From positions 1 to 42,432 of the forward strand of contig JAFWAC010000011.1 in the NCBI GenBank assembly GCA_017507805.1: a DNA stretch of 42,432 nt, written 5' to 3'. Positions 6,968-41,600 of the stretch are shown here, piece by piece (within the stretch, counting starts at the first letter, position 1; each line of letters starts with the position of its first letter). The translations under genes were made by a program, and so were the position numbers. The DNA is from Clostridia bacterium. Its GTDB lineage: Bacteria; Bacillota; Clostridia; Oscillospirales; Acutalibacteraceae. The notes beneath the pieces are model-generated. The model had not been told where the DNA came from, did no database searches, and saw nothing but the letters and a program-made list of their open reading frames with translations.

Positions 6968-7017
6968 TTATATACGCAAAAACACCCTGCCGATGCAGGG
7001 TGTTTTTGCGTATATAA
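6968..7017. terminator. Bidirectional intrinsic terminator, 23-bp perfect stem
   Basis: A perfect 23-base inverted repeat (6968-6990 with 6995-7017) around a CGAT loop. The stem carries A5 and T5 tracts on either side of a GC-rich CACCCTGC core, so it can terminate transcription from both sides. It lies between the convergent AraC gene ending at 6849 and the lipoprotein gene ending at 7031. Confidence 0.85.
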
Positions 7018-7030
7018 TATCACTGATATA

Positions 7031-7852
7031 TTAATATTGATCCATCTCGTAGTAATTATCCAAATTAGCGGGAGCAGTTACGGTAATGTCCTTACCACAG
7101 CTAATGAAGGTTACAGAATTCGCGGAATCATAGGTAACCTTATCGCTTCCTGCGGTGATTTCAGATACAAAGGAAACCTTATATTCTTTAACATAACCAT
7201 CAGCAACAGTAACAACAATAGTGCCATTCTTGGTTGTTACCTGAGTTAAGTCTTCACCGCAAACATTATATACAATTGCGGTCACAACATCTTTATAAAG
7301 GCTCTCAACCGTTGCTTCATCGGCGGTAAGCGTTACGGTGAGACTGCCATCATCGTTTTTCTTGCTCTGAGCATTACCGAAAAGAGCTTCGGGAAGCGCC
7401 GTAACAATACTCTGAGGATTGCCCACCTCTTTGGCATACTCGGCAAAAGTGCACTGTGTCTTGTAGGTGCCTTGTTCAGCGTTGCCAAAATATCTCCATT
7501 CGCCGTCAAAATACTCATTAAGGTCAGAGGTATAGCCCTCCATAATACGCTTACCGATAGCAAGAGCCTTGGGCTTATCGGTATCAAGGGCGGCAGCCTT
7601 GATATTTACATCGGCAGAATTTTCCGACTTACTTCCCATTAAATCGGTTTTGAGTAAGGTATCAATATCTGCATCATAAGACTTTGCATTTAAGGTGTTT
7701 TCAATTGCTTTTGCAACCGTTTCATAAACGGAGGCTTCCTTATTTGTATTGTTTGAGGCTTCGCCGCCGGATTTATTGCCACCGCAAGCGGTGAGAGTGA
7801 GTGCAGAAAGGATAATAAGCAGTGCTAAAGCGAGTGCGGTAATCTTTTTCAT
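7031..7852 (-). CDS. Lipoprotein of unknown function, last gene of the surface operon
   Basis: A 273-residue protein starting at the ATG at 7852 behind AAGGAG. The signal sequence (KKITALALALLIILSALTLTAC) ends in a lipobox TAC with Cys at about residue 23. A Gly/Ser/Asn-rich linker and a mixed alpha/beta domain follow. The pattern of an N-terminal helix (YETVAKAIENTLNAKSYDAD), long antiparallel strands and a repeat of DGSLTVTLTADEATVESLYKDV recalls the LolA/LppX-like or DUF6612-like half-barrel folds of Gram-positive lipoproteins, but I cannot assign a family. It follows the subtilisin gene by 66 bases. A weak TTGACA-like element in that gap may add transcription. Its job is unknown; a chaperone or lipid-binding helper for surface assembly would fit the context. 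Confidence 0.75.
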   Translation of the reverse strand: MKKITALALALLIILSALTLTACGGNKSGGEASNNTNKEASVYETVAKAIENTLNAKSYDADIDTLLKTDLMGSKSENSADVNIKAAALDTDKPKALAIGKRIMEGYTSDLNEYFDGEWRYFGNAEQGTYKTQCTFAEYAKEVGNPQSIVTALPEALFGNAQSKKNDDGSLTVTLTADEATVESLYKDVVTAIVYNVCGEDLTQVTTKNGTIVVTVADGYVKEYKVSFVSEITAGSDKVTYDSANSVTFISCGKDITVTAPANLDNYYEMDQY

Positions 7853-7918: not shown

Positions 7919-8749
7919 CTATTCAATATATTTTTTTCCATCGGGAAGCTCATTTGCTTTCTTCAGCAGTTTTTCACGAAGCTGTGCCGGAGTGAGGCTC
8001 TTATTCTTTTGCAAAAGGCGTCCGGCGCGTGCAGTGACCTTTGCGGCAGAATAGGATGTGCCATCATTCACCTTGGTTTTGCCGCTTAAGGTTGCAGCTT
8101 TAACCTTTTCGCCACAGGTATAGATATCAACCCACTCACCGCGCTGAGAAAAATCCGAAACGGCAGTTTCTTTCCTGTTTACAGAGCCTACTGCAAATAC
8201 GGTATCATAGCCCGCAGGGTAATACTTAAACTCGCCGTCTGACTTGTAGTCATTCCCCGCGGAAGCAACCACCAAAACACCCTTTTGCTCGGCATATTCC
8301 ACCGCCTCACGGACAGCGGTTTTATCAAGAATTAGTCCCACACTCAGATTAATGATTTGGCAGTGGTAGACATTCACCGCATCCTTAATCATCTGAGCAA
8401 AGGTGTCGTTATCCACCTGTTTTATTTTGCCCGTATCATAAGCATTGCTGACAAGGGGAACAAATTTTGCCTGCGGCAGATGCTCCAAAATAACCGATGC
8501 CACCGCAGTGCCGTGACCGTAGGTATCCTCGGTAGTTTTTGCATCGTCTATGTAATTTTTGCCCTCTAAAATATGGTCAGCAGGGATTGCCTTAGAGGAA
8601 ATACCTGTATCAATAACACCGATTATTATAGGCTCTCTTGTAAAGTATTCCACCGTGAGGATAATTCCGCCGATTAAGCACAGGCAGAGCACAATGCAAA
8701 GGATGCGTTGCAGGGACAGGCGTCCTCGACTGTCCGTTTTCTTTTTCAT
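7919..8749 (-). CDS. Membrane-anchored subtilisin-like serine protease (S8)
   Basis: A 276-residue protease with the full S8 triad: Asp47 in GVIDTGI, His79 in YGHGTAVAS and Ser232 in DGTSYSAA. Asn166 in ASAGND supplies the oxyanion hole. Residues 16-34 form one hydrophobic segment after a basic N-terminus (KKKTDSRGR), which would anchor the catalytic domain outside the membrane. There is no visible pro-domain and the domain is at the short end for subtilases. It lies 84 bases after the giant surface protein gene, with a GGAAG ribosome site, and before the lipoprotein gene. Its place in the operon suggests that it cuts, trims or sheds the giant repeat protein or its partner. This role is inference. 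Confidence 0.88.
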   Translation of the reverse strand: MKKKTDSRGRLSLQRILCIVLCLCLIGGIILTVEYFTREPIIIGVIDTGISSKAIPADHILEGKNYIDDAKTTEDTYGHGTAVASVILEHLPQAKFVPLVSNAYDTGKIKQVDNDTFAQMIKDAVNVYHCQIINLSVGLILDKTAVREAVEYAEQKGVLVVASAGNDYKSDGEFKYYPAGYDTVFAVGSVNRKETAVSDFSQRGEWVDIYTCGEKVKAATLSGKTKVNDGTSYSAAKVTARAGRLLQKNKSLTPAQLREKLLKKANELPDGKKYIE

Positions 8750-8833: not shown

Positions 8834-11800
8834 TTAGTCACTGCAAATATCATAAACATATGCGCTTAAGGTGCCGATATTTGAAGCAAACGATCCACCT
8901 ACACTACTTTCATTATATACAAGGTATTCATTAATTTTCATTATATCATCTGCTGTAAGATCCTTTGTCGCATAACAAGTAAATGAAATTGTGTTAGTTC
9001 CTGTACCGTTATCAATATAGCTTGGATTCCTAAAATATTGTTTAAGTTTTGAAGACAGAGTAAGTGACGGAGTACCTGAAATTGAATTAATCGGTTCGTT
9101 GTAAATCACTGTGAGTACTACCGCTTCATCTTTTGCATACGAAGTGAGCGCAAGTGGCGAAACATTTCTGGCTTTAGGTTCATTATAATCATATACTCTG
9201 AGATGAACATCAAGATTTTTGTACTTCCAATCGTCATCACCGTCACCTGCTGCATCAAAGCATATACTCATATTTTTATTTAATGCGATTAATGCATAAG
9301 GTGTTGAGCTTGAAGTATCTTTTACTGTCCACTTGTTTGATACCATATCTTCATCTTTATCATTAAACACATATCCGTTATAAGTATTTGTATTATAACG
9401 CGGTAAGCTGAGGATTTTACCCCAATCAGCCTTTGAGGTTCCGGCCGATTCGAAACGATACTCTGCAAGGGTTGAACCGCCGCGGTTGGTCGCATCAGTA
9501 AACTTAACCCACTGATAACCCTTATCAACCTCCTTAACATCAAAGGTGACGCGGAATGCATAATCAGTAGCAGTTAAATCGCGGTATTTTTCTTGAGCAT
9601 CGGTAAGATACATATTCATAATTGTTTTGGGATAAATATCACGCCAATCGTTCTTTCCATAACCGCTATCTGTGATGGTAATAGGATCATTTATTACACG
9701 GTGGCTATACCAAGTATAAAGACCGGTGGGTACTTGATAAGAACTTACAGGCATTGTTCTCTTAACGGACTTTGTGCTGCCTAAAACGCCGTTGCAATTA
9801 CCTGTAGAATCAACTACTTTATAAAGCTCCACGCGGTAATAACGGGCTTTACCGCCAATTTGATAGCTGGATAACGGGTTATCTGCATTGTTATCATCCT
9901 TTTCAGTAACCGTAACGGTTTTGCTGAAGTCGGAGGCTGTGAAGGTTGCTATACCGCTACCTTCCTTTGTGGGATTAACATGGATAAAGTGGTATTTATC
10001 CTGCTGAGAAGCTGTTGCGACCTCCGGGGTAACACCATAAGCAGTTCCGTTTTGAGTACGGACATATACCACCTGTGGCTCAGCAGTAACTACTGTTTTA
10101 GCGGGCAGTGTTCTCTTTATAGTATAGGTAGATACACGATTGGTGGTACTTGTGTAGCTAATGGTAAAGGTACCTGCGTGTGCCCACTTAGCAACAAGGC
10201 TATAATCCTTACCTGCCGTCTTAGCAATGGCGGTTATCTTTGTTTCACCCTCATACCATCCAAGGAACTTATATCCTGCCTTTGCGGTAGGTGAGGCAAG
10301 AACAACATCACTTTCAGAGGCAACGGTGTATACTGTTACTGTGTTGGGGTTGGCAGCAGAGCCTACATTCCAATCACTATAAGTGATGCTATATTCATTC
10401 AGCTTCCAAATGGCAAAGAGTGTTACTTGGTTTGCACCGTTAGCATTGCCTGCTATATCGGCAATTGCCGCGCTGTCATTATAGGTGTTTGTACCATCTG
10501 TTGCAGTTGCCCAACCGAGGAAGCTGTATCCAACGCGTTCAAAGGTGTTTTCGGGCAGATAGCCTGTGTAAAGAATCGGCTCGGTGGTAACAAATGTGCC
10601 TGTGCCGTCATTAACATTCAGTACAACGGTATAGGTATTTTCCTCCCACAAAGCATAGAACAGCTTGTGACCGATTGAGCCTGCCGCAATACCCTGAACA
10701 GCATTACCCTCAAAGGCGGCGTTATCGTACCAGCCGATAAAGGTATAGCCTGTGCGTTCGTCAGGTACGCTGAGAGCTACGGTATCCTCCACCGTATACT
10801 CGGTTGCGTTATCGTGTTCATCAGCCTCAACACCTACATAGGTGATGCTGTACCTCTGCTTCTGCCATACTGCATAGAGATGGTATGTATCAACACCGTC
10901 TGTTACAAGCCGGCTCAGTTTATCTGCTGCGTTGTAGGTATCAACACCGTCAGACCAGCCTGTGAATATATAGCCATCGTAGCTGAAGGTGTTATCGCCC
11001 AACGCATCGGTAAACTTGAGCTCAACGGTATCCTCTGTTGCGGTGCCGTTGTTTGCGTGGAAAATAACCTTATAGCTGTTTTCTGTCCAATCAGCGATAT
11101 AGGTAAGGTCGCTTGCAGGCATTACGGTTACGGGTGTCTTGCTCCACTTGAAGGTATAACCCCTCTTTACAGGAATGGGGGCTGTAACTGCTGCGCCGTA
11201 GTAAACCTTTCCTTGGGTGTAGCTTTGACCGTCCGCGCTACCGATACCAAGCTCCCATGTAAGGGTATACTGATTACGGGTGTAATAGTAATCCACCACA
11301 TTATCCTGAGCATTCACCTTGATGGTAATGGTAGTTGTAGCTGCAGGGGCTGTAAAGCCTTCATAGGATTTATGATTAGGCGTTACATCGCTATCCATAT
11401 CAGCCGTACCGTTTTCGGTCTTAGCTAATGAATAACCGTTACCGTCAACATTTTGCTGATAATGGTTTACGGTGTAGCCGTACTGTCCTGCAGTCCATTT
11501 TGCCTTTACGGTAAGGTTTTCAGCGCCCATTGCGGCATCGCTGAATACAGATGAGCCGTTATACCAGCCGCTAAAGCCGTAGCCCTCTCTTGTGGGGGCA
11601 GGCAGATTAATTGATTCGCCGTATTTTGCGGTGATGCTTGTTGGTGTTACTGTACCGCCGTTTGCATCAAAGGTAACGGTATAGGAGTTGCGGGTGTAGT
11701 TGTATTTCACTACCAAGCTTCCGTCAGCCTTAACCGTTACGGTCTGAGTAGACGGTGCCTTAAAGCCTGTGTAGCTCTTAACATTAGGTGTTACATCACT

Positions 11801-14800
11801 ACCGGTAGTGCCCTTCAAATTATCTGTATCCGCAAGGATGTAAGAACCATCAAGCTGCTCCTTGTAATGCTCTACTTTGTAGGCGGTATTGTCGTTTGCT
11901 TTCCATACTGCTTTATAGGTAAGGCTGTTTGCAGGCATTAAGTGTGCAGGTGTAATTTCCCAGCCAACAAAGGTATAGCCTGTGCGGGTTACATTCTGCG
12001 GTGCAATAATTTCGGACTCGTAATAAAGCTCCTTAACAATCGGTGTAGAGCCTTTGTAATTAAGGTCAAAGGTTAAGGTGTGCTTTTTACGACCATAGTT
12101 AATCTTAATAACCGTCTTTCCGCTGCCGTCAACCTCTGCCTCATCACAAACAATGCCTTTTACGGTCATATTTTCAAAGACAATAGCATCCTCAAGCAGG
12201 AATTTTTGGTCGGCGGTGGTAGCACCCTCAACGGCAAGGGAACGCAAATAATCGTCTGTGAATACCCTGCCTGTGACGGTTTCACCCTCAATCATATTCT
12301 GAAGAGTATATCTGCCGTCTGTCTGCTCAACATAATATTCAATGCGGTAAGGGGTATCATTATCCTTTTGCCACATTGCCGTATAGGTTAAATCCTTTGT
12401 GCCCACTGTTTCTGCAACATTTACCTTGGTTGTACCGTCAACCGTCCAGCCTACAAAGCTGTAACCCTTCATTGCCATCTGAGGAGCAGAAATGCTTGCA
12501 CCGTATTTAAGGTTATAGGTGACATCGGTCTCGGCGGTAACATCCTCCCCGTCAACCTTACCTGCATCAAAGGTGATGTTGTGGCGTTCAAGGTTGTAGT
12601 AATAGCGAAGCACGGCGCTACCGTCAGCCTCAACCTTAAGCTCTGCCTTAGCAGGAGCTACATAGCCCGTGTATGTCTTAACATCCGGTGTTACATAGGT
12701 ATCGGTAGTACCCTTAAAGGTTTCGGTTTTATAAAGCTCATATTCACCCGAACGGAAATTTTCTTTATAATGCTCTACCGTATAGGGAATATCGTTGCGA
12801 GCCTTCCACTTAGCATAGATAGAGGCATCTGCCGCAGGCATTTGCTTGGGGAATGTATAAGGTGTTTTAAGTGTCGCATCACTGTACCAGCCTGCGAAGG
12901 TATAACCGAGCTTTTCGGGATTTGCAGGCTTTGTTACCGCCGACTCATAATCCTTAACAATCATTGGAATATATGAGCCGCCGTTGGTGTAGGGCACAAT
13001 CATATAACCGTCACGAAGGTTATCCCAATAAAGTGAAAGTGTGCGGGTAATCGGCTTGGAGCTGAAGGACATCGGTTTTTTCTTCCAAGTAACAATCATT
13101 TCTCCTGTCAGCTTCAAATCGTCCTCATCAGGATGAACGGCAATGATGTTGTTCTTGGGGTCATAGGTGAACTTATCATTGGTCATTGTAATGATAAAGT
13201 TTTCACCGTTTCTGAAGTCATCCTCCCTCTCGGGGTCATTCCAATCATTATAAACAGCGGTTTTGTCCTCGCCTGTTATAAGGTCAAGGTAGTACATATT
13301 AAAGAAATCGTCCGAAAGCTGAATTTGCCGTACAAATTGCTTCATTTTAATATCAGGAACATCGCTTTGCTTCATATTAAAGTCAAGCACATTATCACGG
13401 TGGCCTACCTCGTAAAGCTTCCATTCCTTGTCAAGAAGGTTTACCTCTGCGGAATATCTGCCTCCCAGCGCCTGCGCTTCAAGACCAAGCTCCAAGTAGA
13501 TACCAACCTGTATCAGCAAGGCACCGCTATATTGTGTAGACTTGCCCTTGGATGCGGTATATTTTAATTCATAGAAGAAATAACCGTACAGCTTTGTATA
13601 AGCACCTGCCCCTGCATTAAAGCCTACCGAGCCGAGCTTCTTTGAAATCGCATAAATCGAGAACTCCATCTCAACTCCTGCCTTAAGACCGATGCGGCCC
13701 ATAGCATAGAAGCAGAACTCGTAAGCCTTTTCCTGAAGCTCGATGGTGTCGGAATAAACCTCGCCTGCCTTAAGACTGATTGAGAAAACATGGCGCTTGC
13801 CCTCGATGTATTCAAAATCGAAGCCAACCGAGATGCTGGCATCCAGCTGAACCACGAAGTCAAGTGAAAAGCTGATGTTAATCAACGGAATACCAAAGGG
13901 AATAGACTTTTTAACCTCGGTAATATTTTTTTCCAAAAGCTTAATCCAATCCGATTCAGCCTTAACCATTTCGGAATAACGCTGAACCAGCTTGTTTTGG
14001 TTTTCTACTGCTTTTTCTGCATTATCGCCATCCTCTGCCTCGGCATCGCTCAGCAATTCCTTAATTTTGGCAGCCATATCAACAGCGCCTTCAATGCCAT
14101 TGTCGTCTTTATCGTTTTCCTCATCATCGTCATCATTTTTCTTGGTTACCATGGTGGCATTAAAGGAAATCGCGGTATAGTTCATAACATCCACATTTGC
14201 GGCAGCCTTAATATCGGAAATATAAGGAATGATAACCGCCCAATCCCAGACAGCATCAGCGCTTGCGCTAAAGTCAACACCAATCTCCTCAACAAAGCTA
14301 CCTGTAATGGTGATTTCCAAATGTCCGTCAGAGCTATCAGAGGAGATGGTAAAGACTACCTTTACATCTAAGCTGAGAGATATACCCTTCTTGTCGGCAT
14401 CTGTGCCTGCGATATCTCCAAGGTGGGTTGGATTTTTACTTACTCTTGCCTTAACGGTGGTTTCCTCAATCTCTACCTTGATTCCGCCACCTGCCATAAG
14501 CTTAAGCTGTTCAGGGGAAACGGCTGTTCCGTCCTTGAGAGTAACCTTATAATCCTCAAGATTAATATTTTCACTAAGAGCAGTAAAGTTTTCGGTTGCA
14601 AGGGAAAGTGAGGTCAGGTACAATGCCGCTTCCTCAGCAAAGCCGCTGTTCACTGCCTGTTGCTCGATTTCGGACTCTATTTCCTCGGTGTCCATACCCT
14701 CAAGCAGCTCCTGCGCCGACATTTCCTCCTCGGTGTAAACATCCAAACAGGACTCAACATCCTCCCAAGTCACCTTAATAAAGGTAACGGTAGTGGTATC

Positions 14801-16267
14801 ATTATCATTCGCGGTTACTTTTGTAATCTTACCGTAGCCTGTAAGGGCGGCGGCATTTTCACCTGTGCTTACACCGTAATCACCGGTATAGAAGGCAAGG
14901 AAATCGCCAACATCTACGGTGGTCTGACTGTCTAAATTATTATAGGAATATATATCTGCAGAATAATCGAGATACTTGTTTTCTACCGTTACGGTATTAA
15001 CATCGGTATCGGTATCGGCGGCTTCGGGCATCGGAAGCACATCGGGAGTGAATATAACATCCTCTGCGTCAGCGCTTTCGTATGTATACTTGTTGCCGCT
15101 TACCTCGGTGATTTCAAGATAAGCCATGTCACCGAGCTTACTTTCAGGTGTATCCTTTGTTCTCTTGGTCGGAATTTCTCCGTCATAGACACAAACGATG
15201 TCACCCATTTTAATATCGCTGTTACCCGTATAGTTAAAGCTACCTGTTGAAAGGTCGGTTACTGTTACTGTGTTGTCCTTAGCCTCATACAGAGCTAAAT
15301 CCAAGGTAGAAACACTCTGACCGTTATTAATGATATTACTTACCTTATTTAAAGGCAGGTACTTAATATCCGACTTCATAGTGAGGTTCATAACCTCGTC
15401 ACGGTGGACGGTGAAGTTATAATCACGGGCTGTCTCAGGCTGGTCCTTAAAGGTGAGCTTATCGCTGTTTAAGGTGATGCGGTAAGAACAGCCCTCACTG
15501 AAGCCGTCCCTTCCCTTGACCGTGAATGCACCCGTAGTTCCGCTTACTGTAATGATGTTCTCAGCATCAGGATCGGTCAAATCGGTTGCGCTGATAACCG
15601 CCAAAACATCATCAGCCGTCATATTCGGGTCAGAGGACAATACCGTAATAGCAAAGTCGGTATCAACATCTACTGCGCTTGCAAAGGTTACGACATCTAA
15701 GGTGTCAAGAGGTGCCTGCTCTAACCAATTAGCATAGAGGGTAATACTCTTTGTAACCTTATCGGTGCTTTGAACCGTTTGCTTCAATGCGGCATCATAG
15801 CACCAGCCAACAAAGATATGCTCTACCCAATAAGGTGTCGGCAAAGTGCTGATAAGAGTGCCCTCCAGCACGATTTTATCCGCAATGGCTGTACCGCCGC
15901 CGGTTTCAAACTTAACGGTAAAGCGCTCCAAGCCGCGCAAAAGCTTAGTGCCGTAGCCGCCAACAACATATTGACGGATACAGCTCACATCCTTTGCAGT
16001 AACATAACCGTCTGCGTTGACATCTGCGGCAAGGGCATTAATTTTAACATCATAGCCGCCTGCAATGTGTCTGCGCACTAAGTTTACATCCAATGCGTCT
16101 ATCCTGCCATCGCCGTTGACATCACCGGGGGTGTAATCGGAGGTTCGGGACATTGCGGCATCAATAGCATCTGCGATTACGCTTGTTGGTACGAGCTGTA
16201 AAAGAAATACAACAGCCAGCAATACAGAAAGTGCTTGCTTTAACCAATTATTCTTTATTCTAAGCAT
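8834..16267 (-). CDS. Giant secreted repeat protein with N-terminal dockerin and InlB-type B repeats
   Basis: A 2477-residue protein behind a strong AAGGAGG site that overlaps the stop of the cohesin-like gene. Residues 1-33 are a signal peptide. Residues 48-106 form a type I dockerin with two calcium loops, DVNGDGRIDALD (49-60) and DVNADGYVTAKD (82-93), each followed by a helix ending in GGY. One InlB/Flg_new repeat follows (FVGWCYDA). Then comes a region of roughly 900 residues with acidic linkers and alternating amphipathic strands that I do not recognise. About nine more Flg_new repeats (FAGWYSDA, FVGWTVDG, FSGWYNGS, FIGWYDNA, FLGWYEGE and others) are interleaved with at least four MucBP-like units (YxVEHYKE). 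The last 350 residues are non-repetitive and end without LPXTG, SLH or a membrane segment. Surface attachment therefore probably depends on the dockerin. It is likely an adhesin or matrix protein. Confidence 0.92.
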   Translation of the reverse strand: MLRIKNNWLKQALSVLLAVVFLLQLVPTSVIADAIDAAMSRTSDYTPGDVNGDGRIDALDVNLVRRHIAGGYDVKINALAADVNADGYVTAKDVSCIRQYVVGGYGTKLLRGLERFTVKFETGGGTAIADKIVLEGTLISTLPTPYWVEHIFVGWCYDAALKQTVQSTDKVTKSITLYANWLEQAPLDTLDVVTFASAVDVDTDFAITVLSSDPNMTADDVLAVISATDLTDPDAENIITVSGTTGAFTVKGRDGFSEGCSYRITLNSDKLTFKDQPETARDYNFTVHRDEVMNLTMKSDIKYLPLNKVSNIINNGQSVSTLDLALYEAKDNTVTVTDLSTGSFNYTGNSDIKMGDIVCVYDGEIPTKRTKDTPESKLGDMAYLEITEVSGNKYTYESADAEDVIFTPDVLPMPEAADTDTDVNTVTVENKYLDYSADIYSYNNLDSQTTVDVGDFLAFYTGDYGVSTGENAAALTGYGKITKVTANDNDTTTVTFIKVTWEDVESCLDVYTEEEMSAQELLEGMDTEEIESEIEQQAVNSGFAEEAALYLTSLSLATENFTALSENINLEDYKVTLKDGTAVSPEQLKLMAGGGIKVEIEETTVKARVSKNPTHLGDIAGTDADKKGISLSLDVKVVFTISSDSSDGHLEITITGSFVEEIGVDFSASADAVWDWAVIIPYISDIKAAANVDVMNYTAISFNATMVTKKNDDDDEENDKDDNGIEGAVDMAAKIKELLSDAEAEDGDNAEKAVENQNKLVQRYSEMVKAESDWIKLLEKNITEVKKSIPFGIPLINISFSLDFVVQLDASISVGFDFEYIEGKRHVFSISLKAGEVYSDTIELQEKAYEFCFYAMGRIGLKAGVEMEFSIYAISKKLGSVGFNAGAGAYTKLYGYFFYELKYTASKGKSTQYSGALLIQVGIYLELGLEAQALGGRYSAEVNLLDKEWKLYEVGHRDNVLDFNMKQSDVPDIKMKQFVRQIQLSDDFFNMYYLDLITGEDKTAVYNDWNDPEREDDFRNGENFIITMTNDKFTYDPKNNIIAVHPDEDDLKLTGEMIVTWKKKPMSFSSKPITRTLSLYWDNLRDGYMIVPYTNGGSYIPMIVKDYESAVTKPANPEKLGYTFAGWYSDATLKTPYTFPKQMPAADASIYAKWKARNDIPYTVEHYKENFRSGEYELYKTETFKGTTDTYVTPDVKTYTGYVAPAKAELKVEADGSAVLRYYYNLERHNITFDAGKVDGEDVTAETDVTYNLKYGASISAPQMAMKGYSFVGWTVDGTTKVNVAETVGTKDLTYTAMWQKDNDTPYRIEYYVEQTDGRYTLQNMIEGETVTGRVFTDDYLRSLAVEGATTADQKFLLEDAIVFENMTVKGIVCDEAEVDGSGKTVIKINYGRKKHTLTFDLNYKGSTPIVKELYYESEIIAPQNVTRTGYTFVGWEITPAHLMPANSLTYKAVWKANDNTAYKVEHYKEQLDGSYILADTDNLKGTTGSDVTPNVKSYTGFKAPSTQTVTVKADGSLVVKYNYTRNSYTVTFDANGGTVTPTSITAKYGESINLPAPTREGYGFSGWYNGSSVFSDAAMGAENLTVKAKWTAGQYGYTVNHYQQNVDGNGYSLAKTENGTADMDSDVTPNHKSYEGFTAPAATTTITIKVNAQDNVVDYYYTRNQYTLTWELGIGSADGQSYTQGKVYYGAAVTAPIPVKRGYTFKWSKTPVTVMPASDLTYIADWTENSYKVIFHANNGTATEDTVELKFTDALGDNTFSYDGYIFTGWSDGVDTYNAADKLSRLVTDGVDTYHLYAVWQKQRYSITYVGVEADEHDNATEYTVEDTVALSVPDERTGYTFIGWYDNAAFEGNAVQGIAAGSIGHKLFYALWEENTYTVVLNVNDGTGTFVTTEPILYTGYLPENTFERVGYSFLGWATATDGTNTYNDSAAIADIAGNANGANQVTLFAIWKLNEYSITYSDWNVGSAANPNTVTVYTVASESDVVLASPTAKAGYKFLGWYEGETKITAIAKTAGKDYSLVAKWAHAGTFTISYTSTTNRVSTYTIKRTLPAKTVVTAEPQVVYVRTQNGTAYGVTPEVATASQQDKYHFIHVNPTKEGSGIATFTASDFSKTVTVTEKDDNNADNPLSSYQIGGKARYYRVELYKVVDSTGNCNGVLGSTKSVKRTMPVSSYQVPTGLYTWYSHRVINDPITITDSGYGKNDWRDIYPKTIMNMYLTDAQEKYRDLTATDYAFRVTFDVKEVDKGYQWVKFTDATNRGGSTLAEYRFESAGTSKADWGKILSLPRYNTNTYNGYVFNDKDEDMVSNKWTVKDTSSSTPYALIALNKNMSICFDAAGDGDDDWKYKNLDVHLRVYDYNEPKARNVSPLALTSYAKDEAVVLTVIYNEPINSISGTPSLTLSSKLKQYFRNPSYIDNGTGTNTISFTCYATKDLTADDIMKINEYLVYNESSVGGSFASNIGTLSAYVYDICSD

Positions 16268-16279
16268 TGTATTTCCTCC

Positions 16280-17071
16280 TTATTTAACGGTAACAGAGCC
16301 ATTTTCCAAGTATACCTTGGGTGTCTTGTAGGCTTCATCGAAAACAGCGCCTTTATCATAGGATAATTTCACATCATATTTGCCTGAAGCGGCTGTGTCA
16401 TTGATTTTAAAGGTGAGACTAAACAAGATGCCGTCCTTTTTATCCTCGCTTTGCAGCTCCAGAGCATCCAGCATAAAGGTATAGGGGGAAGTCTTTGCGT
16501 CTGAGCCGGGAGATGTAAGGGTAAGTCCGGGATGTTCGGTTTTTTTGCCCTCCTTGAAGGAGAATACCTTATCGTCCACCGAAACCTTTAAAACCGCACC
16601 CATAATACCGGGGTTGTTTATAACACGGATATTTATTGACGCTTCGCCCGAGCTCTTATCTACTGTAACATGCTCCGCATAAATCACAGTCTTGGTAGTG
16701 GTATAGGTAGCTGTCACCACCAAATCCGAGGTAACCTTATCAAACGCCTTATCCCATCCCTCAAAGGTGAAATTCTCACGCGCGGGGTCTGCAGGAGCAT
16801 TAGCCGACTCGCCCTTTTCCACCTTCTGAGTATCCAAAACCGTACCGTCATAATCCTTGAATGTAACGATAAAGGTATCTGCCTGTGTATCGGCTGAGGG
16901 TGTATCAGAATCGGTGGGGGCGGTCTGCGTTGTTCCGTCTCCCTGTGCCGGCAAATCGTTCTTACAACCCTTTAAAACAACCGCCATTGTTACCACAAGC
17001 GCAATAACCGCTACCGCGGCAACAACGACTATGATTGCTTTCGATTTAGTGAAGCCTGTTCCCATATTCAT
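16280..17071 (-). CDS. Membrane-anchored cohesin-like protein, candidate partner of the adjacent dockerin
   Basis: A 263-residue protein. Residues 12-34 form a single membrane segment (AIIVVVAAVAVIALVVTMAV). A Thr/Asp/Ser-rich linker follows (37-65), then one InlB-type repeat (66-125, with FTFEGWDKAF) and a domain from 127 to the end. That domain has the cohesin layout: a first strand, INIRVINNPGIMGAVLKVSVD, and the closing block DGILFSLTFKINDTAASGKY, then a final strand LENGSVTVK. Cohesins commonly end in FxNGSITV-like strands after TFKVKxxAxxGxY. LKGC at 33-36 is a poor lipobox, so a membrane anchor is more likely than a lipoprotein. The start ATG has GGAGG seven bases upstream. It is first in the operon, 12 bases before the giant dockerin protein, behind a MerR-type promoter. 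The cohesin call rests on pattern, not a search. Confidence 0.78.
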   Translation of the reverse strand: MNMGTGFTKSKAIIVVVAAVAVIALVVTMAVVLKGCKNDLPAQGDGTTQTAPTDSDTPSADTQADTFIVTFKDYDGTVLDTQKVEKGESANAPADPARENFTFEGWDKAFDKVTSDLVVTATYTTTKTVIYAEHVTVDKSSGEASINIRVINNPGIMGAVLKVSVDDKVFSFKEGKKTEHPGLTLTSPGSDAKTSPYTFMLDALELQSEDKKDGILFSLTFKINDTAASGKYDVKLSYDKGAVFDEAYKTPKVYLENGSVTVK

Positions 17072-17229: not shown

Positions 17230-18012
17230 ATGAAAAAGCATGATAAATCGTTATTCCAAATCGGTGAGGTTACCAAAATAATGGGTGTCACCCGAAAAAC
17301 CTTGCTTGTTTTTGAGGATATGGGACTTTTAACCCCTGCTGTAAAAGATGAAGAAAGCGGTTACAGATATTATTCGGCAGACAATATGACACAGATCAGG
17401 GCAATCCGTTCCTTGCAAGCATTGGGGCTGTCCCTGAAAGAGGTAGCAGAATACTATTACGACACAGAAAACATTGACGCGCATTTGAAGCGCCTTATGG
17501 ATCTACGGTCTGCATTAGATAAAAATATTCAGATGCTTCAGGTTCGTGCAGCCAAGCAAGGCGATCTGACCGTAAGAAAAACCACTCTGCCACGACAGGT
17601 CTGCTTTTGCCGTCATTATGAGTGTGAAAATGTAGTTGTTGCGGCAAATGTTCTGCGAGATACATATATTGCCGCCGCCCGTACCGGTAAAATGGCTATG
17701 CTTGGCCGTATGTTTACTATGCGTGTATCGCTCCCGACCGATAAGTTAGATCTTATGTGCTGTATTCCCGTAGAGGATGATTTTGAAGGTGCTGAGCGTA
17801 TAGAGTTCCCTGAAACTCCAGCACTTTGCATCTATTACCGTGGACCGTACGAGGGAACTGCTACCGCCATCAAAGCACTAATGGCTTATGTAAAAGAAAA
17901 CAACATCGAAATTACAGGCTCGTTCCGTTCTATTTATATGGAGGGTCCACCCAACCGCGGAAAAAACAGCGATGATTATATAACACAGGTGGCTGTGCCG
18001 ATTAAGGGATAA
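17230..18012 (+). CDS. MerR-family transcriptional activator with GyrI-like effector domain (BmrR-like)
   Basis: A 260-residue regulator. Residues about 8-77 are the winged MerR DNA-binding domain (LFQIGEVTKIMGVTRKTLLVFEDMG, then SGYRYYSADNMTQI). Residues 80-112 form the dimer coiled coil. Residues 115-260 look like a GyrI/effector-binding domain (CFCRHYECENVVVAA..., ALCIYYRGPYEGTATAIKALMAYV...). BmrR-type proteins bind drug-like or amphipathic ligands in this domain and activate promoters with 19-bp spacers. Tyr replacement in the usual Y-x-E (LVFEDMG for the common RYYEDIG) is a small departure. It is divergent from the cohesin/dockerin operon, whose promoter matches its expected target. 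The ligand is unknown. Confidence 0.88.
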   Translation: MKKHDKSLFQIGEVTKIMGVTRKTLLVFEDMGLLTPAVKDEESGYRYYSADNMTQIRAIRSLQALGLSLKEVAEYYYDTENIDAHLKRLMDLRSALDKNIQMLQVRAAKQGDLTVRKTTLPRQVCFCRHYECENVVVAANVLRDTYIAAARTGKMAMLGRMFTMRVSLPTDKLDLMCCIPVEDDFEGAERIEFPETPALCIYYRGPYEGTATAIKALMAYVKENNIEITGSFRSIYMEGPPNRGKNSDDYITQVAVPIKG

Positions 18013-35324: not shown

Positions 35325-37385
35325 TTATTCAATTGGCTCGTTGATGGTGATGATACTGTCTGCACCGATATAACTTGCCTGTACTCTGATATACGCACTT
35401 GTCTCGGTACTTGCTATCGTAAACTCTGACAGATTATTATCTTTCCAAGCCGCATTTTCGTAAGCTGTCAAATTGGTCGCTTGATGAATTTTCGTTTCTG
35501 CTCCAAAGCTTGAACCAAAGAAAAATACCGTACAATTGTTTGTATCCTCCTCAGGCATCGTTATGTTTTTCAAACGAATTACATCACCGGCGGAAACGGG
35601 TATGTATCCTGTCAAGTAGATACCGTCTGCTGTTGTTTCTGTATCGCTCGATGAGCTCCAGCGCGTATTTGCCTTATACCCCATACCGTTATACACGCTT
35701 CCGTCCGTATCAATGGCTGACTGCAGAACATTGGTATAACTAACGGCATAGTTTTTAATCTCGATTTCTCTGCCCTCACCTCTGCCTACGCGCACAACTG
35801 TAATTTTGCGATTATCGTAATCGGCAATAATACCGCTTACGGAAGCTTCTGTTATTGTTCCTTTGGTTGCTGTATAATCGCCTCTGCAATGATAGCTGTC
35901 AGTTTGACATAATATAACCGGAATACCGTTTGCAGATGTGAAATCGTAATCAACATGGGTGTGACCGCCTATGCAAAATTCCACACAACCACCCGCTTCT
36001 GTGAAATTAAACGAAATTGCTGTGCTGTTCATAGTGATAGAACCGCTGTTTTTTGCGTTATAAGCATCAAATATTGTAAGCAGCTTTTGGCAATAATCCG
36101 GAACACTGCCAATTGTCGGTGTCTCCGTACTGTCATAAACAAACCATATATGACTTATCACAACAATATGCCAGCCTTCGGGTGTGCTGTTTAAAGCATC
36201 AATAGTAAACTGTGCCGATTTATCGCTTACAGAAAGAAGTCCTGTATCAAGATAAATATATCTTGTCTTTTCGGGATTACAATCAATGTAATAATGAAAA
36301 TAATCCCCACGAACTACATCGCTGGTTTCTTCAGGTGCAAGCAAAAATCCATACTGTTGTGCATCGCTTTCAAGTTCAGGAATATAAGCATCATAATAAT
36401 CGTGGTTTCCTATAACACTGTGATGATTAGGAATATTTCTTATTGCCTTTTTCCATTCGCGCATTTTTGCCAAATATTCACCTTCGGCTACGGTGTAATT
36501 ATTCATATAATCGCCACCAAAATTCACTTTATTGATGGCTGTATTTTCATAGAGATATTTTAATAATTTCGGCGACATTGCCGAGCCGTAGCCCCAATGT
36601 GCATCAGTATAGAACAGAAAAGCCGACTTGTTGGAACCGGCGGTTTCAATAGCCGTATTAATAGCCTTTGCACCCTCGTCAAGTGCTGTCTGCCAATAAT
36701 CCGGCACACCCTCAAGCTCTGCTTTTAGCTCGTCCATAAGCTCTGACTTGTCCTCGGCGGTAAAATAGTCTGTACCCTTAATCGGTGTATGCCCATCTGC
36801 GCCGGTGTCACCTTTTTCACCTTTTTCGCCTTGTGCGCCTGTTGCTCCTGTTTCACCCTGAATTCCCTGTATACCTTGCGGACCCTGCTCACCCTGTATG
36901 CCTTGCTCGCCCTTTTCTCCTCGGGGGCCCTGCGCTCCGTCTGCACCGTCCTTACCGTTAAGCACCTCAAAGGTCTGCTCCCGGTCGGCATCGGTTATGG
37001 TAACGGTATGCCCGTTTTCGGTTTCGGCTACGCTGACCGAAATCAGGGTGTCCTCACCGTTAGGGTCTATCCAGACGCTAACATCCTCATCTGTCGGTTC
37101 CTCGCTGCCGATATATACGCCCGCTTTGCCCGGCTCACCTGGGGCGCCGTCCTTGCCCTGCTCACCGTCCTCACCTTTAGGACCTAACCACCACGGCAAC
37201 TCGTTCCAATGATTTTCACCGTCTCCAAATTTTATTTTTTCACTGCCTGTGCCATCGGTGACAATACCCGGCTCACCCGAAAGCAATACGGGATTTTTTG
37301 CCGCCCAATTTTCCGCAGTGTCGCTCCGGGCTTTAAACCGCGCTTTGGCAGAAATTCTTGTTATATCCTTTGTATTCTCTGACAT
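35325..37385 (-). CDS. Phage tail fibre with collagen-like shaft and calcineurin-type metallophosphoesterase domain
   Basis: A 686-residue fusion. Residues 1-65 resemble hyaluronidase-like or tail-fibre N-termini (RFKARSDTAENWAAKNPVLL). Two Gly-x-x collagen-like stretches follow (about 68-90 and 143-198). A complete metallophosphoesterase domain then spans about 250-500, with Asp261/His263 (YTDAHWGYG), Asp292 (GGDYM), Asn327-His328-Asp329 (GNHD), His412 (ISHIWF) and His475/His477 (GHTHVD). A beta-rich C-terminal domain (540-686) may bind the receptor. All metal ligands are intact. It likely hydrolyses a phosphodiester or phosphomonoester on the host surface, such as teichoic acid or a phosphorylated glycan. 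The ATG follows AAGGAGG. Confidence 0.88.
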   Translation of the reverse strand: MSENTKDITRISAKARFKARSDTAENWAAKNPVLLSGEPGIVTDGTGSEKIKFGDGENHWNELPWWLGPKGEDGEQGKDGAPGEPGKAGVYIGSEEPTDEDVSVWIDPNGEDTLISVSVAETENGHTVTITDADREQTFEVLNGKDGADGAQGPRGEKGEQGIQGEQGPQGIQGIQGETGATGAQGEKGEKGDTGADGHTPIKGTDYFTAEDKSELMDELKAELEGVPDYWQTALDEGAKAINTAIETAGSNKSAFLFYTDAHWGYGSAMSPKLLKYLYENTAINKVNFGGDYMNNYTVAEGEYLAKMREWKKAIRNIPNHHSVIGNHDYYDAYIPELESDAQQYGFLLAPEETSDVVRGDYFHYYIDCNPEKTRYIYLDTGLLSVSDKSAQFTIDALNSTPEGWHIVVISHIWFVYDSTETPTIGSVPDYCQKLLTIFDAYNAKNSGSITMNSTAISFNFTEAGGCVEFCIGGHTHVDYDFTSANGIPVILCQTDSYHCRGDYTATKGTITEASVSGIIADYDNRKITVVRVGRGEGREIEIKNYAVSYTNVLQSAIDTDGSVYNGMGYKANTRWSSSSDTETTADGIYLTGYIPVSAGDVIRLKNITMPEEDTNNCTVFFFGSSFGAETKIHQATNLTAYENAAWKDNNLSEFTIASTETSAYIRVQASYIGADSIITINEPIE

Positions 37386-37399
37386 TTTTTATTCCCTCC

Positions 37400-38512
37400 T
37401 TAGGCTGTTCTTTTCCAGCAGTATGCTGTGATGTACGGCGGCATAATGCTAAATGCTTCTCCGTTACCAATTTCTCCCGTTGTCGATGTGTCGTTTCGGC
37501 TCGAAGTCGGTTGTATAAGTGAAAAATAATCCTTGTCGCCCTCACCATCGGCACCAACCGATGTGGGCACTATGTGACTGTGTGGCGGCAGATTATCCAC
37601 TGTAAGCTTAACCGTTGCCGCGCCGCCTGAATTGCCTATAGGATATATGTCTCCCACAGCCAGAATAAAGGTGTCCTTAATCTGCTCCCAGGTTCCGCCG
37701 AAAAGGTCGGCAGGTGATGTTGCTTCAAAGCTGTAATATACACTGCCAATCGGGTGCGCTTCATCTAAAGCATCTTTCTTTGCCTCCGCTTTAGCCTCTG
37801 CAATTTTGGCTTCTGTCTCTGCGGTGAGTTTTTCAAGCTCAGCGGCTATGTATGCAAATATTCCCTTGCTCTGCACCGGGTTTGCGCTGCTTTCCGTAAC
37901 CTCGGCATCCACCGCAAAATCAATGCTTATTTCACCCTCGGCATTGCCGCCGTCAAATATCCATTCGGTACCGCCCTCTAATGCCGCCTTTGCGTTCTCG
38001 GTTTTTCCCCTTGCTTCCTCGGCAACCTTTGCCGCATTTTCCGCAATTTCAGCATTTTCCTTTGCCGATACTGCAAGGGTTGTTATACTTTCGGGTGTTT
38101 CCCCCGAAACATCTCCGGCTTCGGGCAAGGATTTTAAAATCAGCTTCACCTCATAGGAATAGGCTTCCATTTCGGTTTTGTCATCCTTAACAAGGGTTAT
38201 AACCAAAAATACCCTTATTGTGCCGCCGTATTGGGTGAGCCTACTTTCTATCGGGTAAATAAGTGCTTCTGTTTCACTAAGGTTCAATTCCTGCGGAACG
38301 GTTGAACTCTTGCCGCCTGCGCCGTCATACCCGTCAAAGCGATAGTAAAGCGTACCACCACTCCCAAGCTCTGACAATTTAGTCCTCAATGGGTTATCCA
38401 AAACAAATTTAAGGCTTGTTGCAAGATGGTCGTTTTGCACTCCGCCCTTTTGTATCGCCGCCGGTGAGATATAATCCACACCCACGGTGTATTCCAAAAT
38501 TCTTAATGACAT
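37400..38512 (-). CDS. Phage baseplate/fibre protein with Gp10-type C-terminal domain
   Basis: A 370-residue protein. Residues 1-130 form a beta-rich baseplate upper-type domain (BppU-like: GVQNDHLATSLKFVLDNP..., YYRFDGYDGAGGK). A coiled coil rich in Ala/Glu spans about 145-250. Residues 253-370 match the Gp10 C-terminal or phage fibre knob: HPIGSVYYSFEATSPADLFGGTW, DNLPPHSH, and the closing MPPYITAYCWKRTA. It starts behind AAGGAGG and lies 14 bases upstream of the metallophosphoesterase fibre gene. Confidence 0.87.
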   Translation of the reverse strand: MSLRILEYTVGVDYISPAAIQKGGVQNDHLATSLKFVLDNPLRTKLSELGSGGTLYYRFDGYDGAGGKSSTVPQELNLSETEALIYPIESRLTQYGGTIRVFLVITLVKDDKTEMEAYSYEVKLILKSLPEAGDVSGETPESITTLAVSAKENAEIAENAAKVAEEARGKTENAKAALEGGTEWIFDGGNAEGEISIDFAVDAEVTESSANPVQSKGIFAYIAAELEKLTAETEAKIAEAKAEAKKDALDEAHPIGSVYYSFEATSPADLFGGTWEQIKDTFILAVGDIYPIGNSGGAATVKLTVDNLPPHSHIVPTSVGADGEGDKDYFSLIQPTSSRNDTSTTGEIGNGEAFSIMPPYITAYCWKRTA

Positions 38513-38564
38513 ATTTTTCCTCCTTTATTTTGGTGCTTTTATTCTATATACAAATTCCCACAAA

Positions 38565-38658
38565 AAACGAACAAAACCAAAAGCGCCCTGAAGGACGCTT
38601 CTCACACTCTTATTATATACATTTCTATACGAACAAAACGAACAAAATCAAAAGCGCC
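38565..38658. repeat. Two near-identical 23-base direct repeats
   Basis: 38565-38587 and 38636-38658 differ at one position (AAACGAACAAAAYCAAAAGCGCC). Each forms the 5' side of a hairpin in the gap between the polyvalent protein and the baseplate protein genes. Confidence 0.75.
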
Positions 38659-38682
38659 TATCCGCTAAGATAAACGCTTTTG
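38581..38682 (-). terminator. Tandem intrinsic terminators after the polyvalent protein gene
   Basis: On the minus strand the first hairpin pairs 38675-38682 with 38649-38656 (CAAAAGCG arms) and is followed by ATTTTGTTCGTTTTG. The second pairs 38596-38600 with 38581-38585 plus an inner CC/GG, followed by GGTTTTGTTCGTTTTTT. They would separate the giant gene from the tail fibre genes. Confidence 0.65.
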
Positions 38683-38687
38683 AAATT

Positions 38688-41600
38688 TTATTTGTTTTTT
38701 GCATTGGAAACATAGTAGTCAACTACAGAGTATCCGTTCCGTTCTCGCTTTGCCGCCGTTTGATATTTCCCGCCTTTTGCAAAAATATCATATTCCGAAA
38801 CGGTGGTTTTGGCTTTTGCATTGGCAAATTCATAAAGGTTGGTTATAACCGTTGCTCTTTGCTTATCGTTAAGCTCGCCGTAATCATCGCATTGCAAAAA
38901 CTCCCGAATATAATCAAAAGAGTATTCACCCTTAGCCTTTGCGTATGTAACATACTCATCTGCTGTAAGCTGTTTGGTCTTTTCGTCAACCGTAAAGCTT
39001 TTTGGAGCAACCTTTGGGAAAACATTCTCTCCCGTCTTAACAAAAAGCCTTTTCAGCTCCTCATCTGTTTCGGAATAATCCATTTTGGAATAATATCCCG
39101 GCGAAACAAAATTTTCCAATATTCTTTCCGCTGTACCGCCTCTGCTTACCACTCTGCCCCACGCATCAATTTTTGGTATCTGCGTATAGGAAAGACCCGG
39201 AATTTTAGATTTAACATTATTAATAACCGTTTGCGATGTACTGTCAAACCACTTTGAATTTTTATCAATATACCAACTGCGTTGTGTTGGGTCAATTGTT
39301 CGACTCACTGCACCTAACACAGACGGCACACCCTGCATAGCATACGAGATAATTGCATCGCTGGCTATAGCTGAAAGTGTCTGACTGCTATCCGCGTACC
39401 TTGTAGCTTCAATTACACCCTGTATTCCGCTTAGCATAGATAGATTTGTTATCGGCTCTAAGGTATTCCAAAGCACATTTGTTAAATTTGCAATCGAAAA
39501 TTCCTCTCCGTCTTTCATTGAATTAACGAGCTCGACCCCGATAAAGAACGGTATACAGGCAGGTGCCGCCCAATCAATCGTATATGAGCGACCAAAGAAT
39601 TCTACTGCATACTCCTGTTTGCCGAGCAACTTCTCAAAGGTCGACTCTTTGTCGTCATCCTCGCCTCCGCTTATACAACCGGCTAAGGTCAAGAACACAC
39701 CTGCAAGCATAATGCCTGTACCTGTAAGCCCTGATGCCAAACCGTCAATAAATTCGGTTGGTGTGATTTTGCCCCTTTTAACATCCAATGTACCCTTAAC
39801 AAGTGTTTTGCTAAGTCCGATAGGACTATATTCCACCCCACGCTTTACAATGTTTATCGGCGTGCGCTTAAAGGGCAATATGCCCTCTACAAAGAAATTT
39901 GTTGCAAGATTTTTATTCCCAAAATTCTGTATCCAATTAGCCAAGGCACTTTCATCGGTAAAGGTTGCTTTTCTTGCCTCATTTACAGCATATATCCTTG
40001 CCTCTGTAAGCACATCCTTGCTCACAACTTTAAGGTCTGCATTCCGTGCCTGCAAATATCCAGCCAACGCGTGAATATAATGTCTGTTTTTAAAGAGCAT
40101 ATCCTCCGCTTCCAAGGCATTGCTGTTAAATCTTGTGATAAATTCAAGGGCTTTGCTTTTGAAAATTCTTTGTTTTTCCTTCAACGCGCTTTTGTCGTTG
40201 TATTTATTTCCCTTGAGCAGTTGCTTAACCTCATCACTTTTTCCGTCCGCCTTTGCAAATGCGGCATATTCCTTTTTGATAATCAGTGATTTTGTTCTAT
40301 TGGAACTATCAATAAGTCCTGCTTTTGCAACTCCGGCTTCAATACCTGTCGCAATCACATCCTTAATGCGTACAACCGGTGTGAATATTGCATTACTTAA
40401 AACATTACGAACATGTGTTTTCGGGTTGAAAAGCATTGCAAAATACCGCCATGCGTTCCATTTATCCAGGAAAGAAACCGGCATTTGGTTGGCTATATCC
40501 TGAAGCAGTGCCTGATAAGCCTGTTCAATTGCCTTTTTGCTCTTAGCAACCGTAAGCATTTCGGCTATTTCGGGGCTGATTTTAATTTCCGGTGCTTTAT
40601 CGCCGTATTTATTTCTCAGGTCTTTATTAAGGGTTTTAACTGTTCTCTGCAGGCTTACAAGTCTTCCCGCACCCGTCATTTTCTTTAATAGCCGTGCCGC
40701 TTGAACATTCTGACCCGATATTGTGAATATATCTGCAAGCTCGGCAGATAATTCCAAAACTCTTTTTGTATCCCCTGCTTCCAAAGCCGCTGCTAACAAT
40801 TGTTCGCCTATGGCAATATTATTTTTGTTAATAGCTTCTGTACCGTTAGCAACATTTCCCCAAATCTCCTCGGCTTTTCCTTTTTGCACCGTTGTCTCGG
40901 CATATTTCATTGCCTTATCATCCGATATAGCTTTATATGAGAAATCGCCAAGCAACACCTTTTCCTCAAACTTTTCAAGCATTTCATCCGTAAGCTTGCC
41001 TGTTTCCACAAAGGTTCTTGCAAATCTCTCGGTAGGCATATCCTCTGCAACCGCTTTCGGGACAGCTATCGGCATGGGTGTCTGCGATTTTTCGCCCTGC
41101 TCTATCGCGCCATATTTCTTGTTAGCCTCACCCCAAAGCCTGTCATTGTTCTGCAAATATTCCTCTCGGCTGATTTCTCCCCTTTTATACCTTGCAAGAT
41201 TTTCCATTGCTTCGGGATTTTGCTGTTTTGGAATTTTTCTCCCCTCTTTCGCGGCAGAGATTTTTTCCGCCAGAACCCTGTCCTCCATTTCGGAAATGGT
41301 CTTATTCCAGAGTTCGTCAAACTTTTGGTGATATTCCTCGCGGGTGATTTCTCCGCTTTCGTAGCTGTTAAGCAACATCCGCGCCTCAGTCGGAACTGAA
41401 AACCCCAATCTATCCGATTTTTCCGCCGTTTCGGAATATTCTCCGCTTTCCTGCGTAGAATTAGTATTGACATTTTCAGCATCATTTGATATATTAAATT
41501 CAGTAGATACATCAGTACTGGATAGGGATTTTCCCTTACCAACGCTGTTTGTATCTACTATTTTTTTGTCGTTAATTTTTATTATATCATATAAAACCGC

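Follow-up and report, generated by a model that had tools for sequence, protein, structure and literature searches.

Two adjacent genes on the minus strand probably encode a two-part, non-covalent surface anchor, in which a small membrane protein bearing a cohesin would serve as the socket and an N-terminal dockerin on a 2477-aa giant protein as the plug. Beyond this locus, and with somewhat more reserve, we favour the view that the cohesin–dockerin joint is a general, portable surface anchor outside cellulosomes, which in one family of giant proteins has repeatedly displaced anchors of the SLH or membrane type, always together with a neighbouring or in-chain cohesin of its own and in SLH-poor hosts. 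The window, i.e. the whole stretch of 42,432 nt that was analysed, is one entire contig of a 2.34-Mb genome that is 87.6% complete. The pair and its surroundings comprise the following features, given in the direction of transcription of the pair.

17230..18012, plus strand: divergent MerR-family regulator, which also adjoins the pair in homolog locus L192 (83% identical)
16280..17071, minus strand: 263-aa protein, predicted membrane-anchored cohesin protein and proposed socket (ORF and Pfam domain search)
16973..17038, minus strand: predicted N-terminal membrane helix, aa 12-33 (hydropathy and by eye)
16871..16972, minus strand: linker rich in Thr, Ser and Asp, aa 34-67 (by eye)
16676..16870, minus strand: InlB-type (Flg_new) repeat, aa 68-132, proposed stalk (Pfam)
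16286..16642, minus strand: cohesin PF00963, aa 144-262 (Pfam and PDB profile search)
16275..16279, minus strand: GGAGG, ribosome binding site of the giant, inside the 12-nt gap (sequence)
8834..16267, minus strand: 2477-aa giant protein (ORF and Pfam)
16169..16267, minus strand: signal peptide of the giant, ending at about aa 33 (cleavage placed by eye; hydrophobic segment 8-37)
15965..16129, minus strand: type I dockerin, aa 47-101, with two calcium loops, proposed plug (Pfam and PDB profile)
15722..15925, minus strand: InlB-type repeat between dockerin and core (position taken from the L192 alignment)
12998..15715, minus strand: conserved core of the giant family, aa 185-1090, without a Pfam family (homolog searches)
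9998..12988, minus strand: InlB-type repeat region, about aa 1094-2090, approximate limits (Pfam and sequence)
8837..9997, minus strand: C-terminal region of the giant, without sorting signal or membrane helix (sequence and hydropathy)
7919..8749, minus strand: S8 subtilase with D, H and S motifs (Pfam) and an N-terminal hydrophobic helix (by eye)
7031..7852, minus strand: putative lipoprotein with an LTAC lipobox (by eye); the transcription unit probably ends here
6971..7014, minus strand: terminator-like hairpin with a 20-bp stem, after the lipoprotein gene (sequence)

Hydropathy places a hydrophobic segment at residues 5-38 of the 263-aa protein (Kyte–Doolittle maximum 3.22). We interpret it as an anchor that is not cleaved off, since the hydrophobic stretch is some 22 residues long and inspection by eye shows no evident cleavage site; the same features are seen, again by eye, in the L192 ortholog. 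Its InlB-type repeat scores 33.5 bits against a Pfam cut-off of 27 and is present in one copy, compared with two in the ortholog. The cohesin scores 28.5 bits (E 2e-6), 4.4 bits above the curated Pfam cut-off of 24.1, and that of the ortholog 28.8 bits. As a single query, the protein matched a solved cohesin weakly (4ums, E 0.13). When the window cohesin was combined with three relatives of the same domain in one profile (A4), the search gave 10 distinct PDB sequences at E ≤1, with a best E of 4.5e-7; all 10 are titled scaffoldin, cellulosome-anchoring or cohesin, and the second-best, 3ul4_A, is titled a cellulosome-anchoring protein. The first-pass annotation had described a gene at 16280-17071 with an N-terminal membrane helix, an InlB-like repeat and a C-terminal domain of cohesin layout. 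The coordinates are right, on the minus strand; hydropathy and Pfam agree with the layout, and the cohesin was detected in the PF00963 search and is supported by the A4 profile. No SLH domain was found on the protein in the Pfam domain search. By hydropathy, its predicted anchor is a membrane helix, a type other than SLH or sortase anchoring. One cohesin and one predicted surface anchor are carried on a single protein, the combination expected of a monovalent anchor of the OlpA/ScaE kind.

The giant starts 12 nt downstream of the cohesin gene and is preceded by GGAGG. Its Dockerin_1 domain (PF00404) covers profile positions 1-56 of 57, scores 52.3 bits against a cut-off of 22.9 (E 6.5e-14) and is the top-scoring one among the 30 Pfam dockerins of the genome. 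The two calcium-loop repeats have 13 of 28 residues in common, and 20 of 28 in L192. A profile search matches the domain to type I dockerins of the PDB; in entries 3ul4, 5lxv, 6kgc and 4uyp, the A chains match the cohesin profile and the B chains the dockerin profile, the cohesin profile reaching 4uyp_A at only E 0.8. Pfam found ten Flg_new stretches in the giant, no catalytic or carbohydrate-binding domain and no cohesin within its own chain, and the core was left unnamed by Pfam and PDB profile searches. Hydropathy revealed no second hydrophobic segment besides 8-37, and no LPXTG-like signal could be read at the C-terminus. The earlier description of the giant therefore holds: its size and the 12-base gap agree, Dockerin_1 at 47-101 follows a signal-peptide-like N-terminus as claimed, no sorting signal or other anchor is seen, and the Pfam search returned no catalytic domain. 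The orientation fits anchoring, with the cohesin predicted to be tethered N-terminally and the dockerin at the predicted mature N-terminus of the giant.

Homologs of the core occur in 16 of 394 genomes of an order sample and 12 of 398 of a family sample (own genome counted). A core scan of named genomes gave 53 loci, ranging from ruminant-gut MAGs to Paenibacillus, Cohnella, Oscillibacter, Neglectibacter and Acetivibrio; viral contigs gave no match to the core and contain two distant dockerin loci. Within the genus, the core is found in 2 of 70 genomes, the window's own and G061, the latter with the in-chain cohesin form. The 263-aa protein (P0001) as a query matched 34 of the 70 genus genomes, and among the genus matches listed outside its own genome none covers both the InlB repeat and the cohesin. 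The recurrence of the pair came to light only through the core family in other genera, not through the genus search.

Sequence comparison demonstrates that the N-terminal slot of the giant holds interchangeable predicted anchors: SLH domains, a membrane helix or lipobox, or a dockerin. The module ahead of the core is SLH in 35 of 61 rows, dockerin in 16 and something else in 10 (the window giant is not among the 61), the last class including a membrane helix (L194, L195, L197) and a lipobox (L193), both by eye. In L193 and L195, the module switch falls just before the repeat equivalent to window 15722..15925. In a tree of 15 rows, the window giant groups with L191 and L192 (100/100) and is joined by the lipoprotein L193 (100/99); this group lies among membrane-anchored giants, with the SLH giant L220 next (100/100). 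L196 was counted as membrane-anchored in the trees, its N-terminus being cut and its class assigned by the linker. In a second tree, dockerin giants with a cohesin gene upstream are scattered; four changes on starred branches are required to account for them, each of which could be a gain or a loss. L239 has an SLH giant as its sister, and L222 falls with the SLH giant L219 and with L212. At L222:8499-16444, in a Roseburia MAG, the core belongs with SLH giants, while the cohesin and the dockerin are more similar to their counterparts in Lachnospiraceae L237 and L239. The anchor cassette may be able to move between unrelated cores, as L222 illustrates. A separate observation concerns L130:6547-9911, an SLH-type homolog of the giant in G407, which is broken into three ORFs and contains one in-frame TAG.

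The pair itself was found again in relatives. It recurs in L192 with unchanged layout (cohesin domain 60% and dockerin 66% identical) and as a fragment in L191, where the 124 upstream bases left by the contig cut are the end of the same cohesin gene; a cohesin gene followed by a dockerin giant is also found in L222, L237 and L239. Among closed chains, a cohesin accompanies 10 of 10 dockerin-type giants (nine from the homolog table plus the window's own), 0 of 29 SLH-type giants and 0 of 6 others. Five of the 10 have it in the upstream gene (own, L192, L222, L237 and L239, with gaps of 12, 18, -4, 23 and -4 nt) and five in the chain (L159, L160, L228, L235 and L240), L159 and L160 both being counted despite near-identical cores. 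The association gives a Fisher P of 3e-10, or 7e-10 without three gene fragments (L130, L230 and L233, among the 35 closed chains without cohesin), with kinship left uncorrected in both values. L129, another of these 35, has only 327 nt of upstream sequence. The closed-chain count leaves out seven contig-duplicate loci, 5′-open chains (e.g. L226), chains of <400 aa and chains with an unaligned core start (e.g. G525); both L226 and G525 have a cohesin in the chain. Taking all 16 dockerin rows, the cohesin is upstream in four, in the chain in seven and not registered in five (L191, whose upstream cohesin fragment is described above, and L133, L134, L157 and L242), all five of which are cut by a contig end. 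The dockerin of L222 is weak (E 3.9e-4), and hydropathy shows no membrane helix beyond the signal peptide in the L237 cohesin protein.

At genome level, a cohesin is present in 18 of 20 dockerin-type genomes and in three of seven SLH-type genomes, with two each. One exception among the former is G815, which harbours L191 with its cut gene. The other, G172, is listed as 99% complete and has a dockerin-type giant and no Pfam cohesin; a contig end truncates this giant at 465 aa, and the assembly may therefore lack an in-chain cohesin. The host genomes of L237 and L239 each have a single cohesin and a single dockerin, encoded side by side (Pfam, E ≤0.001; MAGs as assembled). In a partial Mantel test, cohesin and dockerin divergence were not significantly correlated beyond that of the core (P 0.14 for 14 loci, P 0.10 for five loci). 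Five giants combine an N-terminal dockerin with an in-chain cohesin near aa 1730-1910 (L086:3081-9005, L156:4197-10724, L158:2755-8652, L159:1390-10017 and L160:5674-13506), those of L086, L156 and L158 having sortase-like ends by pattern match. Head-to-tail assembly or self-closure is possible for such in-chain dockerin–cohesin giants.

The hosts differ in their SLH content. The seven SLH-type hosts have 39-96 SLH repeats per genome, compared with 0-4 in the 25 hosts whose giants are of the dockerin or membrane-anchored type. The presence of cohesins by itself does not decide the anchor of the giant. Acetivibrio mesophilus has 31 cohesins and 76 dockerins, yet its giant is anchored by SLH; the membrane-anchored L195 and L197 come from genomes with two and four cohesins that the giant does not use, and L196, classed by its linker as the N-terminus is cut, from a genome with one cohesin, likewise not used.

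Based on these observations, we propose how the anchor would work. The 263-aa protein would stay in the membrane through its N-terminal helix, and its linker and InlB repeat would hold the cohesin outside the cell. The giant would be secreted and its signal peptide removed, freeing the N-terminal dockerin, which would then bind the membrane cohesin in a calcium-dependent manner. The giant would be held by its N-terminus, as its homologs are by SLH domains or a membrane anchor, and where a host has few SLH proteins or none, the joint would stand in for a built-in anchor. We infer binding, calcium dependence and surface location from the respective families, and linkage suggests that the window cohesin is able to bind the dockerin. 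The first-pass annotation had already suggested a two-part display of the giant on the surface. This is now supported by the exchange of N-terminal anchors and the cohesin in every closed dockerin-type chain, and also by the L237 and L239 genomes, in which the sole Pfam cohesin and dockerin lie side by side.

The window pair is not the only such combination in its genome, which has nine Pfam cohesins in nine ORFs, one each, and 30 Pfam dockerins. Of these cohesin ORFs, six directly adjoin a dockerin ORF, where about 0.3 contacts are expected (an estimate for 30 dockerin genes placed at random among about 2100). A domain scan that took in 29 of the 30 dockerin ORFs found LRR_5, RCC1, transglutaminase or glycosidase domains on some of them, the glycosidase-type domains being GH13, GH16, fucosidase-like and GH101-like (below cut-off). 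The dockerin of a 1717-aa giant at C7:14690-19843 is 57% identical to that of the window giant, with the next best at 40%, so cross-binding is possible; the two C7 cohesins are the highest-scoring kin of the window cohesin. The window pair may not be exclusive, judging by these similarities. The C7 giant forms part of a second cassette (L062:7265-13844, C7:13264-19843), in which an LRR–dockerin–InlB–cohesin protein is followed after 13 nt by the 1717-aa cohesin–dockerin–LRR–InlB protein, and whose modules are the nearest to those of the window pair. The cohesin of the 1717-aa protein scores 42.9 bits in the Pfam cohesin search and is absent from one ORF domain-scan listing. The two cassette proteins could chain together. 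At C5:56483-59839 (L064:6484-9840), an LRR and dockerin protein has one Pfam cohesin and a second at 915-1027, detected by the cohesin profile built in this analysis; a small scaffoldin may therefore exist. At L063:7029-10333 (C5:30028-33332), a cohesin protein with a C-terminal hydrophobic helix adjoins an SH3_3–dockerin protein.

The abundance of cohesins and dockerins in the genome, together with the similar C7 dockerin and cohesins, would suit a general membrane socket, where the cohesin binds several dockerin proteins, the dockerin of the giant binds other cohesins, and adjacency serves co-expression rather than marking a dedicated pair. We regard this as possible but on the unlikely side: the remaining 28 dockerins score clearly lower against that of the window giant, two genomes manage with just one Pfam cohesin and one Pfam dockerin, and sharing would in any case leave the anchoring role intact. 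It is improbable that the joint links giants into a chain or lattice, with the separate cohesin capping or starting the array at the membrane. Such an arrangement is suggested by seven homolog giants in which a single chain combines a dockerin at the N-terminus with a cohesin at about 1730-2100, by the sortase-like signals (pattern match) that end the giants of G061, G525 and G697, and by the C7 protein with cohesin and dockerin that adjoins a cohesin protein. However, no cohesin was found in the chain of the window giant, which argues against self-polymerisation.

As a cargo or scaffold of a cellulosome or amylosome, the giant would keep company with the glycosidase-type domains on some of the 29 scanned dockerin ORFs, with the second cohesin at C5:56483-59839 and, by analogy, with Ruminococcus bromii, for which the available text of PMC9112005 likewise reports many non-enzymatic dockerin proteins. 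We set this reading low, as very improbable, because each Pfam cohesin stands alone in its ORF; the giant also lacks a catalytic or carbohydrate-binding Pfam domain, and the L237 and L239 genomes have no other Pfam dockerin. The second, profile-detected cohesin at C5:56483-59839, in a genome that is 87.6% complete, weakens the first of these points and makes the reading slightly less improbable. A GH48 search of the genome gave no match, but neither did any control genome, and the search therefore lacked a positive control. Finally, the cohesin score near the Pfam cut-off and the E of 0.13 in the single-query search raise the idea of a degenerate cohesin, a beta-sandwich that no longer binds dockerins and whose neighbourhood is historical. 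To this we give hardly any credence, as the domain is 60% identical to its L192 counterpart with the pair kept together, and every PDB match of the four-sequence profile is a cohesin or scaffoldin chain. The anchor formed by membrane cohesin and dockerin is the reading we retain.

Several known systems resemble the proposed anchor. In Ruminococcus flavefaciens, a single surface-anchored cohesin, ScaE, holds the adhesion protein CttA via its dockerin (PMC5301203, PMC4266597). As described in these papers, ScaE is sortase-anchored, whereas the window pair has a predicted N-terminal membrane helix; the CttA dockerin is C-terminal with an X module, whereas that of the window giant is N-terminal; CttA has carbohydrate-binding modules, and the giant no such Pfam domain; and ScaE–CttA is part of a cellulosome, while no large scaffoldin was seen in the window genome. 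The family of the window giant, moreover, uses other anchors elsewhere. OlpA and SdbA of Clostridium thermocellum are also surface-anchoring proteins with one cohesin, but they are described in the excerpted source as attaching cellulosomal proteins, and SdbA has its SLH repeats on the cohesin protein (PMC3413522); here, the dockerin occupies the place that SLH domains take on the cargo in relatives. R. bromii, with its amylosome, shares with the window's host a gut habitat, a small number of cohesins and a large set of dockerin proteins that are mostly non-enzymatic. The amylosome differs in being directed at starch and in having scaffoldins with sortase signals, and the available part of the paper describes no adjacent dedicated giant pair (PMC9112005). 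In ANME archaea, cohesin–dockerin joints outside cellulose degradation have been suggested to attach proteins to the outer layer of the cell; the text at hand describes neither an anchor exchange in a traceable family nor an adjacent membrane cohesin (PMC9012536). The same text states that cohesins and dockerins exist in bacteria and archaea without cellulosomes, where their roles are mostly open (PMC9012536).

An N-terminal dockerin behind a signal peptide is already known and not new, as 19 N-terminal dockerins are reported for R. flavefaciens in the accessible text of PMC2930009. Single-cohesin surface anchors are known as well, and what is new here is the anchor swap: in open-licence PMC papers, we found no family of giants in which an SLH or membrane anchor has traceably given way to a dockerin accompanied by a cohesin of its own. 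The exchange within the family suggests, at the sequence level, that the joint can serve as an exchangeable anchor. The occurrence of one core with three kinds of predicted anchor (SLH, membrane, or dockerin together with cohesin) amounts to a natural experiment, and gives cohesin–dockerin joints outside cellulosomes a specific and testable role, i.e. surface anchoring. L237 and L239 represent minimal one-plus-one systems. The loci also provide a rule for predicting partners, either the gene just upstream or the same chain, and could be a source of small cohesin–dockerin pairs for the display of very large proteins.

Behind the giant, the subtilase and lipoprotein genes follow in the same direction up to the strong hairpin. 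Of 49 eligible homolog loci, 12 have an S8 gene starting no more than 300 nt behind the giant; SLH, membrane-anchored and dockerin types are all represented, and the count includes duplicate contigs (L127 and L219 are one). The S8 subtilase may process or release the giant. Elsewhere in the window, positions 35325-42431 (minus strand) encode a collagen-repeat protein with a metallophosphatase domain, a Gp10_C baseplate-domain protein and a long protein open at the end of the window, a gene group that is possibly phage-tail-like.
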